Shown here: piece after piece, positions 1,171 to 13,954 of the stretch | How the letters are laid out: each line of letters begins with the position of its first letter | Position numbering within the stretch: position 1 is the stretch's first letter | NCBI GenBank assembly: GCA_018335655.1 | Contig: JAGXRX010000014.1 | Span: 174,370-216,045 of the forward strand | Source: Erysipelothrix sp. | GTDB lineage: Bacteria; Bacillota_I; Bacilli_A; Erysipelotrichales; Erysipelotrichaceae | Length of the DNA: 41,676 bases | Direction of reading: 5' to 3' | The notes under the pieces: generated by a model | What the model was told of the DNA's origin: nothing | The model's input: the letters and a program-made list of their open reading frames with translations, nothing else | Database searches by the model: none | Position numbers and translations under genes: made by a program

Positions 1171-1211
1171 TTGTGAAACCCCTTTCATTTGTAATATAGA
1201 TTCAGTATAAT
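1171..1211 (+). promoter_or_regulatory. Promoter(s) of the leucine dehydrogenase operon
   Basis: A consensus TATAAT sits at 1206-1211, though its -35 region is weak. A second possible promoter, TTGTGA (1171-1176) then 18 bases then TATAGA (1195-1200), overlaps it. From the TATAAT box, transcription would start near 1218, only a few bases before the AACGAGG that precedes the leader peptide. The leader ORF would then be the first translated element of the mRNA. Confidence 0.6.
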
Positions 1212-1233
1212 GTAGATGTAAACGAGGTACTCT

Positions 1234-1275
1234 ATGGAAAATCTTATCTTGATTGGTTTACTAAATAACAAATAA
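1234..1275 (+). CDS. Leu/Ile-rich leader peptide (MENLILIGLLNNK), putative attenuation peptide
   Basis: A 13-codon ORF runs from ATG at 1234 to TAA at 1273-1275 and encodes MENLILIGLLNNK. Six of 13 residues are Leu or Ile, with four Leu codons all different (CTT, TTG, TTA, CTA) and two Ile codons (ATC, ATT). It has a strong ribosome binding site, AACGAGG at 1221-1227, spaced six bases from ATG, the same type as the gene at 16. It ends five bases before a factor-independent terminator and 54 bases before leucine dehydrogenase. Amino acid-rich short leaders in front of terminators are classic attenuation peptides. Here the downstream genes degrade branched-chain amino acids. Translation and regulation are inferred, not shown. 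Confidence 0.65.
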   Translation: MENLILIGLLNNK

Positions 1276-1279
1276 AAAC

Positions 1280-1313
1280 AACCGCTTTTGTGTAGACAAT
1301 TGCGGTTTTTTAT
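1280..1313 (+). terminator. Intrinsic terminator/attenuator before leucine dehydrogenase
   Basis: AACCGC (1280-1285) pairs perfectly with GCGGTT (1302-1307). Inside, after a two-base T/T internal loop, TTGT (1288-1291) pairs with ACAA (1296-1299) around a GTAG loop. A T-rich tract follows (1306-1313). It lies between the leader peptide stop and the ribosome binding site of the dehydrogenase, so it must be read through for operon expression. That placement suggests an attenuator rather than a simple gene-end terminator. Confidence 0.75.
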
Positions 1314-1329
1314 ATAAAGGAGAATTACA

Positions 1330-2424: not shown

Positions 2425-2646
2425 ATGCCCAAAGGCAAAGTTACCTTTGAAGAAGCGTTATGTAAAGGATGTGAGCTATGTGTTCATGCATGTCCAAAGA
2501 AGATATTAAAACTTGATGGACAGCGTGTGAATGCTAATGGCTATAAAGTTGCGATTATTTTTGATCCTGAAGAATGTATTGCGTGTGGTTTATGTGCAAT
2601 GTTTTGTCCAGATACAGTGATTACAGTTGAGAGGTTATCACAATGA
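2425..2646 (+). CDS. vorD: 2-oxoacid:ferredoxin oxidoreductase, delta (ferredoxin) subunit
   Basis: The 73-residue protein carries two 4Fe-4S motifs: Cys13, 16, 19, 23 and Cys51, 54, 57, 61, each ending in Cys-Pro. This is the standard 2[4Fe-4S] electron-transfer subunit of four-subunit 2-oxoacid:ferredoxin oxidoreductases (POR/VOR/KOR). It moves electrons from the thiamine centre to external ferredoxin. A strong GGGAGG lies before the ATG. Its TGA stop overlaps the ATG of the alpha subunit gene, which indicates translational coupling. The Vor assignment comes from the leucine dehydrogenase neighbour; the sequence alone shows only the ferredoxin fold. Confidence 0.85.
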   Translation: MPKGKVTFEEALCKGCELCVHACPKKILKLDGQRVNANGYKVAIIFDPEECIACGLCAMFCPDTVITVERLSQ

Positions 2647-3728
2647 GTAAAATTGAATTTTTAAAAGGAAATGAAGCGATTGCGAAAGCTGCATTAAACT
2701 ATGGGCTTGAAGCATTCTTTGGTTATCCAATTACCCCTCAAAATGAACTCATTGAGACAATGTCGAATATCATGCCAGCGAATGGTCGTGTTTTTGTGCA
2801 AGCAGAAAGCGAAATTGCAGCAATCAACATGGTTTATGGAGCAGCAGGAGCAGGTGCTCGTGTCATGACTTCATCTTCCTCAGTAGGAATTGCTCTCAAA
2901 CAAGAAGGGATATCATATTGTGCGGGAGCTGAGCTTCCATGTGTCATCGTTTCTGTATCACGAAGTGGTCCAGGACTTGGTGGAATATTACCTGCTCAAA
3001 GTGATTATCATCAATCTGTTTATGGTGGTGGTAATGGTGATTATCGTGTTATTGTATTATCCCCAGCGAGTGTTCAAGAAGCAGTTGATGATGTTGGTAA
3101 AGCATTTCAATTAGCTGAGAAATATCGCAATCCAGCAATGGTACTATTAGATGGTGCTATTGCACAAATGATGGCGAGTGTCACACTTCCTACGCAACCT
3201 CTTCCTTATCCTGATAATAAATCTTGGTCTGCAACAGGGGATGCTAAAGAGCGTGGATCACGCAATGTTATTAATTCCTTATATCTTGATCCTGCAAAGC
3301 TCTACGCACATAACCTAAAACTTCAAGAAAAATATCGTGAAATTGCTAAAAATGAAGCTTGGTGTATTGATCATCAACCTGACAGTCATGATGGTGCAAT
3401 TATCGCTTATGGAACAAGTGCAAAGATTGCTCTTGGAGCAGTTCAAAGACTTAAAGACGAACATGGTTTAAACATTAAATGTATTCAATTAAGAACTTTA
3501 TGGCCTTTTCCTAAACAAGCACTAAAAGAAGCAACCGCAGGCATGAAGTTTGTATTAGTGGCAGAAATGTCAATGGGACAACTCTTTCAAGATGTTTTAG
3601 CATTTACTCGCACTGATACAGTCATTGGCTATGTTGGTAAAGCGGGTGGAGAAATCATAACTAGTGATGATATTGTTTTAGGATATCTTGCACAAATGGG
3701 AGGTGAGCAAATTGAGCACAGTATTTAA
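2643..3728 (+). CDS. vorA: 2-oxoacid:ferredoxin oxidoreductase, alpha subunit
   Basis: The 361-residue protein shows features of the pyrimidine-binding/alpha subunit: the N-terminal FLKGNEAIAKAAL segment, the FGYPITPQNELIE segment near residues 26-38, and a middle region with SRSGPGLGG. It binds the thiamine diphosphate pyrimidine side and contributes to 2-oxoacid and CoA binding. With the beta, gamma and delta subunits it converts a 2-oxo acid plus CoA to acyl-CoA, CO2 and reduced ferredoxin. The ATG overlaps the upstream TGA. GAGG at 2631-2634 serves as the ribosome binding site. 2-oxoglutarate or pyruvate enzymes share this fold; the leucine dehydrogenase in the same operon favours branched-chain 2-oxo acids. 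Confidence 0.86.
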   Translation: MSKIEFLKGNEAIAKAALNYGLEAFFGYPITPQNELIETMSNIMPANGRVFVQAESEIAAINMVYGAAGAGARVMTSSSSVGIALKQEGISYCAGAELPCVIVSVSRSGPGLGGILPAQSDYHQSVYGGGNGDYRVIVLSPASVQEAVDDVGKAFQLAEKYRNPAMVLLDGAIAQMMASVTLPTQPLPYPDNKSWSATGDAKERGSRNVINSLYLDPAKLYAHNLKLQEKYREIAKNEAWCIDHQPDSHDGAIIAYGTSAKIALGAVQRLKDEHGLNIKCIQLRTLWPFPKQALKEATAGMKFVLVAEMSMGQLFQDVLAFTRTDTVIGYVGKAGGEIITSDDIVLGYLAQMGGEQIEHSI

Positions 3729-4461
3729 AAAGACTGGTGGATTAACGGATACACCATTCTCATATTGTCCTGGATGTACTCATGGTATTATTCATCGCCT
3801 TGTTGCGGAAGTTCTTGAAGAACTAGGAATTCTAGATCGTAGCATTACAATTGCCTCAGTAGGATGTTCAGTATTTGCGTATGACTACTTTAATACAGAT
3901 GCTTTACAAGCACCTCATGGTCGTGCCCCTGCGGTAGCAACAGGAGTTAAACGTATACATCCTGAAAAGATAGTATTTACTTATCAAGGGGATGGAGATT
4001 TAGCTTCCATTGGTGCTGCTGAGATTATTCATGCGGCAAATCGTAATGAAAATATTACTGTTATATTTGTTAATAACGCAATTTATGGTATGACAGGGGG
4101 CCAAATGGCACCAACAACGCTATATAACCAAGTAACAACCACAACTCCTCATGGACGTGACATCATTAGTGGTGCTCCACTCAAGATGAGTGAAATGATA
4201 GCTACAATGGAACATATTGCCTATGTTGAGCGTTGTATGACTGCTGATGCACCAAGTATTATGAAGACTAAGAAAGCAATAAGAAAAGCCTTTGAGTGTC
4301 AAATGAATAATGAAGGATTTTCAATGATTGAGATATTATCCTCATGTAATATTGGGTGGAAGTTATCACCAGTGGAATCATTATCCTACATTAAAAATAC
4401 AATGACACAAACCTTTCCTTTAGGGGTATTTAGGGAGCGCAAACATGAAGCCAACAATTAA
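3712..4461 (+). CDS. vorB: 2-oxoacid:ferredoxin oxidoreductase, beta (TPP-binding) subunit
   Basis: The thiamine diphosphate-binding subunit has a CPGCTHG motif (Cys19, Cys22), VGCSVFAYDYF at 50-60, the Mg/TPP motif GDGDLASIG at 93-101 with following Asn121-Asn122, and IYGMTGGQ. I place the start at TTG 3712, not upstream, because an almost perfect anti-16S match, GGGAGGTGAG (3698-3707), sits five bases before it. This gives 249 residues and an overlap with the alpha subunit stop. The 3' end overlaps the gamma subunit start by 17 bases. Tight overlaps suggest translational coupling across the whole complex. Gene letters follow a common scheme and vary between databases. Confidence 0.88.
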   Translation: MSTVFKKTGGLTDTPFSYCPGCTHGIIHRLVAEVLEELGILDRSITIASVGCSVFAYDYFNTDALQAPHGRAPAVATGVKRIHPEKIVFTYQGDGDLASIGAAEIIHAANRNENITVIFVNNAIYGMTGGQMAPTTLYNQVTTTTPHGRDIISGAPLKMSEMIATMEHIAYVERCMTADAPSIMKTKKAIRKAFECQMNNEGFSMIEILSSCNIGWKLSPVESLSYIKNTMTQTFPLGVFRERKHEANN

Positions 4462-4966
4462 ACTAATCTGTGCAGGATTTGGTGGTCAAGGGGTACTCTC
4501 AGTAGGTCAACTCATAGGTATGTGTGGCATTGAATTAGGTTACGATGTTAGTTGGATGCCTTCATATGGTCCAGAAATGCGTGGTGGAACTGCAAACTGT
4601 CATGTTGTATTATCAAATATTGGACAATCACCATTTATTGGCAAAGATATGACACATGCTTTACTTATGAATGATGCAGCATTTAATAAATTCAAATCAT
4701 TTATCAAAGATGACACCTCAATTGTTATACATACAGGTTTAATTCACCAAGATTATCCAGGATGTGACTTTTCAACATTAGCTCATGAACATGGTGTAGA
4801 CAAAAGCATGAACATGATTGCATTTGGAATGCTTGTAAGAAGTTTAGGTTGGGATGAACATTTAGGGTATAAAGTCATGAAAAGTAAATTTAAAGGACTT
4901 TCAGAGTCACTTCATACAGATAATGAAAAAGCATTTAAGTTAGGATTCACATACGAAAGTGTGTGA
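4445..4966 (+). CDS. vorC: 2-oxoacid:ferredoxin oxidoreductase, gamma subunit
   Basis: The 173-residue protein has the gamma-domain signature GFGGQGVLSVGQ near residues 9-20 and SYGPEMRGGTANC near 40-52, both typical of the gamma chain of POR/VOR/KOR complexes. It is the last gene of the operon, and all four chains are now present, so the complex should be complete. AGGGAG precedes the ATG. The last codons form the 5' half of a strong terminator. Its role is structural and CoA-related; it has no cofactor motif of its own. Confidence 0.86.
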   Translation: MKPTIKLICAGFGGQGVLSVGQLIGMCGIELGYDVSWMPSYGPEMRGGTANCHVVLSNIGQSPFIGKDMTHALLMNDAAFNKFKSFIKDDTSIVIHTGLIHQDYPGCDFSTLAHEHGVDKSMNMIAFGMLVRSLGWDEHLGYKVMKSKFKGLSESLHTDNEKAFKLGFTYESV

Positions 4967-10424: not shown

Positions 10425-11438
10425 ATGAAGGGTGTTATTCTCTATATCATTATAGTTATGCTCATGAGTGCGTGCACTCCAATGCAGAAGCAAAATGAAA
10501 TAAAAGAACTCATTATTTATGGGTTTCCTTTTTTAGAGCCTGAAGTCATGTTGTCTCGATCTGAGCCATTAAAGAACCTTCTTAAAGAAGAACTATCTTT
10601 ACGTGGTTATAATATTGAAACTGTGTCAATTTATATTGGTACAAGTCAGAATGCGGTTGCGGAAGCTTTAAGTTCTGGAAGTGCTCAGATTGGGTTTTTG
10701 AACTCCTTAACTTATTTATTGTATGAAGAAGAAGATTTAATTCCTCTTCTAAGTGCACTACGAGGTAAATTAAACATTGATTCTGAGAGAATTTCAGATT
10801 GGAATACATTGACACCTATTGTCAGGTATACTGACCAATTAGATTCAACGTATCGCAATGTTATTCTCGCAGGGCCATCCATTAAAGGACAATCGCTCAT
10901 TTCACAATTAAATGATGATATGCCACTATCATGGGAAGAGATTTCAACCGCAAAATGGTGTATGCCTAATCCAGGTAATGCTGGGTATATTTATGGCGCA
11001 CTTTGGGTATATCAAACCTATGGTAAATCCATGAGTGAACTACCAAATCTAACAATTATGGGTGGATATCATGAAATGATACAATCAATGGCAACACTAC
11101 AATGTGATGTGGCATCAATGCCAATGATTTTACGTCGTGATTATCAAACACGTTGGCAGACTGACTTTAATCGAAGTGCTAGTTTTCTCGAAGAAGTTAA
11201 GGTGATTGGATTACCACCAAGAACTCCAAATTCCTTGATTGTTGTGAATAAGGCAGCACTAAATAATGATGAAGAACTCATCAATGCAATTAAAAACTCA
11301 TTTTTAGCAATTATTAAAACTGAAGAAGGTAAACTAGCTATTTCACCATTTAGTGTTGATGGGTTAAGTGAAGTGCCAGATAATCTTTTTGATGCTGATT
11401 TAGCAGCGATTGAACTTCTTGGACTTGGTAGACCATGA
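10425..11438 (+). CDS. PhnD-like substrate-binding lipoprotein without transporter genes
   Basis: The 337-residue protein begins with a lipoprotein signal peptide, with lipobox MSAC and Cys17 as the lipidated residue. The body resembles PhnD-type (phosphate/phosphite/phosphonate) binding proteins: an opening YGFPFLEP strand, GTSQNAVAEALSSGSAQIGFLNSLTY near 67-92, and a PRTPNSLIVVNKAAL hinge region. Those proteins bind phosphonate-like or other small anionic ligands on the outer membrane face. No permease or ATPase gene is near. Its TGA overlaps the ATG of the adenylation-carrier-thioesterase gene (ATGA), so the two are probably translated together. That suggests a role in delivering, sensing or retaining that enzyme's product or precursor. 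The ligand is unknown. Confidence 0.75.
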   Translation: MKGVILYIIIVMLMSACTPMQKQNEIKELIIYGFPFLEPEVMLSRSEPLKNLLKEELSLRGYNIETVSIYIGTSQNAVAEALSSGSAQIGFLNSLTYLLYEEEDLIPLLSALRGKLNIDSERISDWNTLTPIVRYTDQLDSTYRNVILAGPSIKGQSLISQLNDDMPLSWEEISTAKWCMPNPGNAGYIYGALWVYQTYGKSMSELPNLTIMGGYHEMIQSMATLQCDVASMPMILRRDYQTRWQTDFNRSASFLEEVKVIGLPPRTPNSLIVVNKAALNNDEELINAIKNSFLAIIKTEEGKLAISPFSVDGLSEVPDNLFDADLAAIELLGLGRP

Positions 11439-13954
11439 GATCATTATTACTACCTCAACTTCACCAATACAGTAATACTCAACCACACAAAATTGCTTTT
11501 CAAGTTCCAAATCTTGGAACATTAACATACGAAGATCTCTTTAATAATTCGAACAAATGGACGAGTGAGCTTTTATCTATTAATATTCCTAACGAGGCAC
11601 GAATAGGAATTTTTGATATAAATCCACTCGATTTAGCTGGGCTAGGCTGTGCAATCGTAAATCAATTTACTTTTGTAGGTATCGACCATAATATGGGTGT
11701 AGAAGCCATTCTTGAGTATATTAAGTTAATGCACATTGATTTAGTAATCACTCAAAAAAAGGAAGGCATCATTAATCAACTTATTGATTCCTCACATTGT
11801 GGGTGGTATCAAATCAATTCTAAACAACAAACTATTATCTGTATTAAAGAACACGAAATCAAACCATTTTCGAAACGAAATGATATTGTTGGAATGATTA
11901 AAACCTCAGGAACAACATCCACTCCTAAAGTCATTGCGGTGAGTGAAGCTATGCTAATATCACAGTTTGATCAGTATTATTCTCATTTCGAAGTTTCAAC
12001 TGAAGATATTTTTGCTCAACCTGTCAATATGTCACGTCCTATCGCTTTTCTACTTCAAAGTATACGTGTTTGGCGCTGGGGTTGTACACTTGTTTATGTT
12101 GCTGATCTTTCACTAAATCAAATCATGCAAACGATTATTGATTCACACATAACACGATATACTGCTCCTACATTTATGATTCATGCAATGAATGAATATG
12201 TTAAGACAAATGACTTTAAACTTAATCATTCATTAATCCTTACAAACTTAGGTTCAACCCTACATCCTATTCATGTGAGTGCCTTGCAAAGCAATCCGTA
12301 TTTGAAAATTGTAAACAGTTATGGCATGAGTGAAACCGGATTATTGACGTCAACCTATGCTCAACCAAACGAAGATATATTTAGTATAGGTATCGACATT
12401 GGAGTAGGAATCACTCTTATTGATGATGAGATATGCATTAAGTATCCGAATTATTTCGAAGGATATGAAAATGTTGATTCCACATCAAGTTTCACTAAAG
12501 GATACTTTAGAACTGGAGATTTAGCATTCCTTGATAACTCTCTAAACTATCAATTAATAGGTCGAGTGAGTGAAATGATTAATCGTGGTGGAGATAAGAT
12601 TTCACCTTATGAAGTGGAGTCAAAGCTAAGTGAGAATCTTGAACTCAAGGATGTTGCCGTTTTTCCTATTCCATCAATTAGGTGGACACAAGAGGTAGGT
12701 TGTGTTGTTGTCACTGAAATGGATATAACCCTTCCCATGATTCGCGAAATACTTAAACCTCACCTTTCATCCTTCAAAATGCCTACGGTGTTATATCGTT
12801 TAGAAGCCATTCCACGAAGCAGTAATGGAAAAATTGTAAGGTCTTTACTTCACCAATATTGCACACAAGAACATCAAATCATATCTAAGTCACAAAAATC
12901 ATCAATGACACCTTTGCAAGAAAGCATCCACGAAGTGTGGTGTGAAGTTCTTCAAGTTGAAAGTATTGGTAAGGACGCTGATTTTATTAGTTGGGGAGGG
13001 GATTCATTTCGTTTTGCACAAATAGTTGCATCACTTCAGCACAAACTATCACTCTCGCTAGACATATCATTGATGAGTGAGGCGAACACGATTGAAAAGC
13101 AAAGTAATGTAATTTTACAAAGCCAGTCAATGAACTGGGGAGTACTGAACCAATACAAGAAAGGTAATCCTTCAAATCCTACAATCATATTTTTCCATGA
13201 TGTAGCGGGTAATTGCGAAGCATATACATATATGCTTATGAATGATTTCAATGAGTATCCGGTATATGGAGTGAATATGACACTTGATTTACTAGAATCA
13301 TTAGATAACATCTCGCTTCATGAAACTGTGAATGCATATGCAAAACTTATTAAAGCTAAAGGGTTTAACGTAGTATATGTAGGAGGAATTAGTTCGGGAG
13401 GTATCTTTGCATACGAATGTGCTCAACTATTGTCACAAGATGTGAGAGTTAAAGGTGTCTTTATGTTTGATACTTTTGTTACTTTAGATCAACGCTTCAA
13501 AACAAAGTCTGGACGTTTCAAGTCGATTATCCGTAAACATATTCGAAGACTAAGAAATGCTTCATGGAAAAGTAATATCTTTCAACTTCCAACATTAGCT
13601 ATGAAAGCTATTAAAAGATGGCTAGATTTGCAGTTTTATGAACCTAAAAGACAAGCGTCTCTTGAACAGTTTATAAGTAGTAGACAAGGAAAGATTACAA
13701 CTCAACATATTCCAATACTTATAAGACAACTCGTCAACGGGTGGACACCTTCTCAAAGCTTGCTCGATGTTATTTATTTCTATGCTAATCAGGAAACAAA
13801 CCCACATCATTCGTATCTAAGAATTAAACCTAAAGTTAAATCCCTGACATTGATTGAAGAGAACACACACCACTCTGGATTTGTGAGTGAAGCCTTAGCT
13901 CATCAAAGCATTACGAAATTGATGGAAATCATTCAAAAGAAAACGTGTGAATAA
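11435..13954 (+). CDS. Adenylation-carrier-thioesterase protein (NRPS-like, single module, no condensation domain)
   Basis: The 839-residue protein has three domains. Adenylation (about 1-475): A3 TSGTTSTPK at 157-165, A5 NSYGMSETG at 294-302, A7 YFRTGD at 357-362, A8 from Gly376 with MINRGGDKISP, and A10 catalytic Lys466. Carrier (about 490-565): GGDS with phosphopantetheine Ser524. Thioesterase (about 580-835): GISSG with probable nucleophile Ser653, an Asp near 679 and His812 or 813. There is no condensation, reductase or oxidase domain. MINRGGDKISP resembles acyl/aryl acid ligases more than amino acid-activating NRPS domains. I infer activation of a carboxylic acid, loading on the carrier and release by hydrolysis, dimerisation or transfer. 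It needs a phosphopantetheinyl transferase encoded elsewhere. Confidence 0.85.
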   Translation: MRSLLLPQLHQYSNTQPHKIAFQVPNLGTLTYEDLFNNSNKWTSELLSINIPNEARIGIFDINPLDLAGLGCAIVNQFTFVGIDHNMGVEAILEYIKLMHIDLVITQKKEGIINQLIDSSHCGWYQINSKQQTIICIKEHEIKPFSKRNDIVGMIKTSGTTSTPKVIAVSEAMLISQFDQYYSHFEVSTEDIFAQPVNMSRPIAFLLQSIRVWRWGCTLVYVADLSLNQIMQTIIDSHITRYTAPTFMIHAMNEYVKTNDFKLNHSLILTNLGSTLHPIHVSALQSNPYLKIVNSYGMSETGLLTSTYAQPNEDIFSIGIDIGVGITLIDDEICIKYPNYFEGYENVDSTSSFTKGYFRTGDLAFLDNSLNYQLIGRVSEMINRGGDKISPYEVESKLSENLELKDVAVFPIPSIRWTQEVGCVVVTEMDITLPMIREILKPHLSSFKMPTVLYRLEAIPRSSNGKIVRSLLHQYCTQEHQIISKSQKSSMTPLQESIHEVWCEVLQVESIGKDADFISWGGDSFRFAQIVASLQHKLSLSLDISLMSEANTIEKQSNVILQSQSMNWGVLNQYKKGNPSNPTIIFFHDVAGNCEAYTYMLMNDFNEYPVYGVNMTLDLLESLDNISLHETVNAYAKLIKAKGFNVVYVGGISSGGIFAYECAQLLSQDVRVKGVFMFDTFVTLDQRFKTKSGRFKSIIRKHIRRLRNASWKSNIFQLPTLAMKAIKRWLDLQFYEPKRQASLEQFISSRQGKITTQHIPILIRQLVNGWTPSQSLLDVIYFYANQETNPHHSYLRIKPKVKSLTLIEENTHHSGFVSEALAHQSITKLMEIIQKKTCE

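Follow-up and report, generated by a model that had tools for sequence, protein, structure and literature searches.

Textbook leader-peptide attenuation turns biosynthesis on when charged tRNA is short. In the 41,676-nucleotide stretch of Erysipelothrix DNA analysed here (the window), a 13-codon ORF rich in leucine and isoleucine codons, with an intrinsic terminator close behind it, precedes a leucine dehydrogenase gene (leuDH) and the genes of a ferredoxin oxidoreductase. What would such a leader control in front of an operon that looks catabolic, and in which direction? A first-pass annotation of the sequence had suggested that the usual logic is reversed here, and the analysis supports this in part, namely by the conservation of the leader, the catabolic context, the absence of an antiterminator and the geometry. 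We put at about 0.5 the probability that the region is a compact, ribosome-controlled, positive-sense attenuator of a branched-chain amino acid fermentation operon.

The leader region and its operon

The phosphatase-like gene (518-1165) and leuDH (1330-2409) are separated by 164 bases. The features of this interval and of the genes that follow are listed below.

1174-1187, + strand: cre-like palindrome TGAAACCCCTTTCA, overlapping the −35 position
1206-1211, + strand: −10 box TATAAT, identical in four species with variable flanks
1216-1218 (near), + strand: putative transcription start, placed from the −10 box
1224-1228, + strand: Shine-Dalgarno sequence GAGGT of the leader ORF, 5 nt before the ATG at 1234; GAGG in four species
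1234-1275, + strand: leader ORF MENLILIGLLNNK, 13 codons, stop codon TAA at 1273-1275; no indels in four species
1243-1254, + strand: codons 4-7, Leu-[Ile/Val]-Leu-[Ile/Leu], presumed control codons together with Leu10 (1261-1263)
1273-1324, + strand: 52-nt block invariant in four species (stop codon, 4-nt spacer, terminator, leuDH Shine-Dalgarno sequence)
1280-1311, + strand: intrinsic terminator; 1280-1285 pairs with 1302-1307 and 1288-1291 with 1296-1299, then U's
1316-1322, + strand: Shine-Dalgarno sequence AAAGGAG of leuDH, read from the sequence
1330-2409, + strand: leucine dehydrogenase (PDB homologues 6acf, E 2e-133, 8hpe, 3vpx and 1leh)
2425-2646, + strand: ferredoxin-like ORF, 73 aa (weaker Por/Kor-family match)
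2643-3728, + strand: VorB (NCBIfam NF005507, above cut-off)
ending at 4461, + strand: oxidoreductase beta subunit (weaker Por/Kor-family match)
4445-4966, + strand: oxidoreductase gamma subunit (weaker Por/Kor-family match)

The first-pass annotation had listed the TATAAT box, the ribosome binding site, the ORF with its four different Leu codons and two Ile codons, a terminator five bases after the stop codon, and the dehydrogenase and oxidoreductase genes downstream, and these parts are confirmed. The Leu codons are CTT, TTG, TTA and CTA, with no repeats, and the Ile codons are ATC and ATT. The terminator stem begins on the fifth base after the stop codon, with 4 nt between them. Only about 20 nt separate the end of the terminator from the leuDH start, which leaves no room for a promoter between the two; all transcripts from the promoter at 1206 therefore meet the terminator.

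The hairpin (1280-1307) consists of an outer stem AACCGC/GCGGUU, a UU/UU internal loop and an inner stem UUGU/ACAA closed by GUAG, followed by U's up to 1311. Its computed fold has an energy of −13.3 kcal/mol (z −4.4), and a d'Aubenton-Carafa-type score was +8.4 with the outer stem taken as CCGC/GCGG and negative with AACCGC/GCGGUU; as judged by these calculations, the terminator is fair rather than strong. A simple consensus scan overlooked it because of the UU/UU internal loop. The leader matched no Rfam family at gathering score, including T-box and the other catalogued riboswitches. At permissive thresholds the best weak match was the trpB motif (20.8 of 59 bits), which came mainly from the terminator and was rejected.

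The −35 sequence of the leader promoter is poor. The pattern TGAAANNNNTTTCA matches the window only once, at the cre-like site, and a match was also present in 32 of 100 shuffles. The palindrome is identical in three genomes of the genus, sister genera carry versions of it (TGAAAACGCTTTCA etc.), and its spacing to the −10 box is constant (17-18 bp) in several genera. The arms TGAAA/TTTCA are constant, and the centre is CC in the window's genus, CG in genus g8 and part of genus g26, and GG at L028, L030 and L031. LacI/CcpA-like proteins are present in the genomes, none of them above the CcpA cut-off, and no CodY above the cut-off was found in six genomes.

The 2-oxoacid:ferredoxin oxidoreductase genes, which are of the Vor type, span 2425-4966. 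In g26, phosphotransbutyrylase and butyrate kinase genes (ptb and buk, named from sequence) lie directly upstream of leuDH; TIGR02707 verified the butyrate kinase, which immediately precedes leuDH at G285 C3, and butyrate kinase is present in 6 of 6 genomes. IlvD was found in none of six genomes, two of which belong to the window's genus (90% and 99% complete), compared with 14 of 14 controls. Ketol-acid reductoisomerase gave marginal matches at best, and none in G000, the window's own genome. Judging from the pairing of leucine dehydrogenase with Vor, from ptb-buk, from the absence of IlvD and from the cre-like site, the operon looks catabolic, serving fermentation over biosynthesis, as had been proposed for it. 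A flux in the opposite direction, which would build amino acids out of branched-chain acids, may be compatible with the sequence.

Between leuDH and vor, sister genera encode a P-loop protein (ITGAYGVGKSEFA, about 218 aa; L018:7080-7739, L022:7076-7729 and L028:7080-7736) that the window is without. Elsewhere in the window, an 839-aa single-module adenylation/carrier/thioesterase-like protein (11435-13954) adjoins a substrate-binding-lipoprotein-like ORF (10425-11438), both named solely by the appearance of their sequences.

Conservation of the leader ORF and the terminator

The leader was found in four of the six genomes of the genus; the other two are incomplete (83% and 65%) and are also without a leuDH match. 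All four sequences come from metagenome assemblies, and leuDH is broken or N-masked in two of them. Among 273 genomes of the family, full-length leader DNA matches occurred only in these four, the rest being short chance pieces. The retention of a Leu/Ile-rich ORF in relatives despite codon changes, which the first-pass annotation had named as a check of its proposal, was borne out: the four peptides (MENLILIGLLNNK, MENLILLCLLNNE, MESLVLLDHLKYQ and MEHLILIVSLNHH) all have 13 codons, with Leu, Ile or Val at codons 4, 5, 6, 7 and 10 in every species, and codons 3, 8, 9 and 11-13 change class. Between the window and G004, 14 of the 42 positions of the ORF differ, spread over all three codon positions. 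When the observed numbers of substitutions were placed at random positions, the frame stayed free of stop codons and at least five branched-chain columns were kept in 0.1-0.3% of trials (P about 0.001-0.003), a value that is suggestive, not rigorous, because the statistic was picked after viewing the alignment.

The evidence from the window sequence alone is weaker than that from the four-species comparison. Leu, Ile and Val make up 6 of 12 residues of the leader peptide, which alone is not rare in this AT-rich genome, where they account for 26% of codons. Across 836 kb of G000, about half of this genome, approximately 10 of the 101 gene-upstream terminator-like hairpins adjoin the end of some ORF preceded by a Shine-Dalgarno sequence, and several of these ORFs are the ends of ordinary genes. 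The leuDH leader was the sole case in the scanned 836 kb with an ATG and such a Leu/Ile-rich short ORF.

This residue count, not extreme for an AT-rich genome, leaves space for plain translation coupling, by which any translating ribosome would suppress the terminator, so that the leader would report general translation capacity and its branched-chain codons would be incidental. Occlusion of a terminator requires translation only (PMC4824070). However, coupling does not account for why precisely the branched-chain columns persist while the other codons change, and we consider it unlikely.

The 52-nt block is invariant in four species, in contrast to the fourfold sites of leuDH, where the difference between the window and G004 is 0.61. 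The stem therefore starts at the same distance from the stop codon, 4 nt, in all of them. That the hairpin loop and the internal loop are invariant as well suggests some further constraint, which the ribosome-occlusion model leaves unexplained. Invariance beyond what a terminator needs would fit a region in which the ORF is unused, and either an RNA-binding protein or a small molecule recognises the 52 nt or the terminator simply holds expression constitutively low; sister genera, whose upstream parts differ, have a related terminator (CGUUUUGUG), which points the same way. Such disuse is nevertheless highly improbable, given that frame and length were kept through the 14 differences from G004 and that no Rfam family reached its threshold.

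Ribosome position and the fate of the terminator

The ribosome footprint was modelled as P−12 to P+15, and the RNA was refolded. With the A-site at codons 2-12 the hairpin was spared, at codon 13 half of the 5′ arm was removed, and with the stop codon in the A-site the hairpin was abolished, the leading edge of the ribosome (1285) coinciding with the end of the 5′ arm. A stall at the branched-chain codons would thus permit termination, and only completion of the leader would prevent it. These folds agree with the earlier prediction that a ribosome at TAA covers the 5′ arm and that one held at the Leu codons leaves the hairpin free.

Complementarity between the leader and the 5′ arm fell below the shuffle mean in each of the four species, where 642-935 of 1000 shuffles equalled or surpassed it, and there is therefore no antiterminator in the genus. 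The weak alternative pairing noted in the first-pass annotation (TGGTT 1254-1258 with AACCG 1280-1284) is present but confined to this species; the annotation's preference for ribosome occlusion over a classic antiterminator stands. Biosynthetic attenuators leave a gap of over 20 bp between leader gene and terminator (PMC4824070), a rule from which the window leader departs with its 4-nt gap. When Li et al. shifted a stop codon so that it lay 5 bp instead of 28 bp before a terminator, termination fell from about 90% to less than 10% in a translation-dependent manner (PMC4824070).

These results also bear on classical negative attenuation, in which leucine dehydrogenase and the oxidoreductase would work in reverse to form leucine from isovalerate and starvation would bring read-through. 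Some Firmicute ilv-leu operons do have leucine-rich leaders (PMC5794164), and since the organism is without IlvD, reductive carboxylation of branched-chain acids could be an amino-acid route. On the other hand, with no antiterminator and a 4-nt gap, a branched-chain stall cannot release read-through, and the ptb-buk neighbours and the cre-like site indicate energy catabolism. Classical attenuation is thus very unlikely.

From these data we infer that the leader is translated, how this is timed, what it responds to and which way the response goes, and reversed attenuation would then proceed as follows. The polymerase would leave the promoter and a ribosome would load on the leader nearly at once. 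Where branched-chain aminoacyl-tRNA is plentiful, the ribosome would be at codon 13 or the stop codon by the time the polymerase transcribes the terminator; the edge of the ribosome, reaching to about 1285, would cover the entire 5′ arm (1280-1285), no hairpin would form, and transcription would proceed into leuDH-vor. With charged tRNA-Leu (or tRNA-Ile/Val) short, the ribosome would be held up at codons 4-7 or at codon 10 and come no closer than 6 nt to the arm, the hairpin would fold and transcription would stop. Catabolism would therefore be off when amino acids are needed for protein. The cre-like site over the −35 position would supply catabolite control in addition. That the leader reads branched-chain tRNA charging positively, with uncharged tRNA-Leu stalling the ribosome short of the terminator and shutting the operon, and with the terminating ribosome acting as the antiterminator, is a tentative reading to which we give slightly less than an even chance.

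A toy kinetic model with assumed rates, which uses the approximately 1 s that a ribosome takes to depart from the trp leader stop codon (PMC1183508), put read-through at 16-56% at full speed. Slowing the branched-chain codons to 1/s brought it to at most 2% without a pause or with a short one, and to 2-8% with slow RNA polymerase or a long pause; under all settings tried, slower branched-chain codons meant less read-through. The model indicates plausibility only. In E. coli, the lag of the ribosome usually lets a terminator act when it lies within 100 bp of the start of a coding region, unless the polymerase pauses (PMC4824070). Firmicute ribosomes may trail the polymerase. At B. subtilis tlrB, the two are kept together by a NusG pause (PMC6851288); besides the invariant hairpin, no conserved polymerase pause site was found in the leader of the four species.

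Known attenuators and sister lineages

The biosynthetic attenuators (trp, his, leu and ilv, and ilv-leu of S. aureus) likewise have a short, cognate-rich leader ORF followed by an intrinsic terminator, and the window leader resembles them in its five branched-chain columns in four species. It differs from them in having no mutually exclusive antiterminator, in the 4 nt, not more than 20, between stop codon and terminator, in its operon, which is catabolic by context, and in the reversed sign predicted for it. The pyrBI attenuator of E. coli senses UTP via polymerase pausing. As in pyrBI, a closely following ribosome would physically block the terminator without an antiterminator; unlike pyrBI, the leader ORF here has branched-chain codons.

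In TnaC (tryptophanase) and SpeFL, as here, a leader peptide precedes an amino-acid catabolic gene, and a ribosome at the stop codon is predicted to block termination. B. subtilis tlrB (yxjB) likewise has a very short Firmicute leader peptide, and there a ribosome stalled near the stop codon blocks termination, as is predicted here. The window leader might encode a TnaC-like arrest peptide, in which arrest by the nascent peptide replaces codon stalling in a leader of the same geometry. The hairpin-blocking geometry would be identical to that of the occlusion model, the operon is catabolic like tna (PMC8429421), an aliphatic block lies 6-9 residues from the C-terminus, and the 9-residue tlrB leader MIIQFIRYR, whose stalled ribosome blocks termination, is a Firmicute precedent (PMC6851288). 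However, the last three residues, those closest to the peptidyl-transferase centre and beside the stop codon, are free to vary (NNK, NNE, KYQ and NHH), and codons 5 and 7 exchange Ile, Val and Leu. In addition, tna uses Rho where the window has an intrinsic terminator, and tlrB has an antibiotic-dependent RYR arrest motif and a NusG pause, whereas the window leader is without RYR. Nascent-peptide arrest is therefore rather improbable, and the reading of codons is preferred over that of a free ligand.

Firmicute leader peptides have been described for hisS/hisZ by Naville and Gautheret (PMC2965389). Among the open-access papers searched, none joined a leader peptide with the regulation of leucine dehydrogenase or ketoisovalerate ferredoxin oxidoreductase, an absence that is weak evidence. 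If reversed attenuation is true, the sign of attenuation would have been inverted by altering the stop-terminator distance alone, which would indicate that its logic is easily reversed. The sign of an attenuator could then be read from sequence, a gap of more than 20 nt meaning that starvation turns the operon on and one under about 10 nt that it turns it off. Such a switch would further explain how an organism in which no pathway for making branched-chain amino acids is detectable spares those needed for protein from fermentation.

In the sister lineages, a terminator with different upstream parts precedes leuDH in g8 (L018-L021) and in part of g26 (L022, L024, L025 and L047); the other g26 species have no terminator before leuDH. 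The sequence CG(C)UUUUGUG is common to several of these terminators. Within a candidate ORF at L022 and at L047 lies a strand whose pairing with the terminator 5′ arm surpasses that in 98% and 99% of shuffles, respectively (41 and 16 of 2000 shuffles). The candidate antiterminators there, AUGAUUGUCA and ACGUCUGUCA, pair with UGACAGUCGU, the terminator 5′ arm. At L047, a Leu/Val-rich ORF (VLLVYNVCQDLINVLTD) stops one base before an AGUCG stem. A pairing of the leader Shine-Dalgarno sequence with the terminator 3′ arm (1:4, g8/g26) was set aside as an antiterminator because the 3′ arm is made too late. Terminator and upstream parts vary among the sister lineages, and the attenuator would therefore be a lineage-specific, fast-evolving addition on a conserved promoter.

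The g8 leader, located about 60-190 nt before leuDH (L018, L019, L020 and L021), has about 50 near-invariant bases that include the palindrome ACCTCTAGAGGT, followed by a strong terminator. Its near-invariant first half is not coding-like, has no Rfam match, and occurs only before leuDH among the 273 family genomes; it is possibly an unrecognised sensor RNA. A homologous leader peptide was considered for g8 and dropped, the ORF being frameshifted at L019 and the substitutions not coding-like. In addition, a c-di-GMP-I riboswitch was detected at L021:5732-5821 on the − strand with a score of 58 bits.
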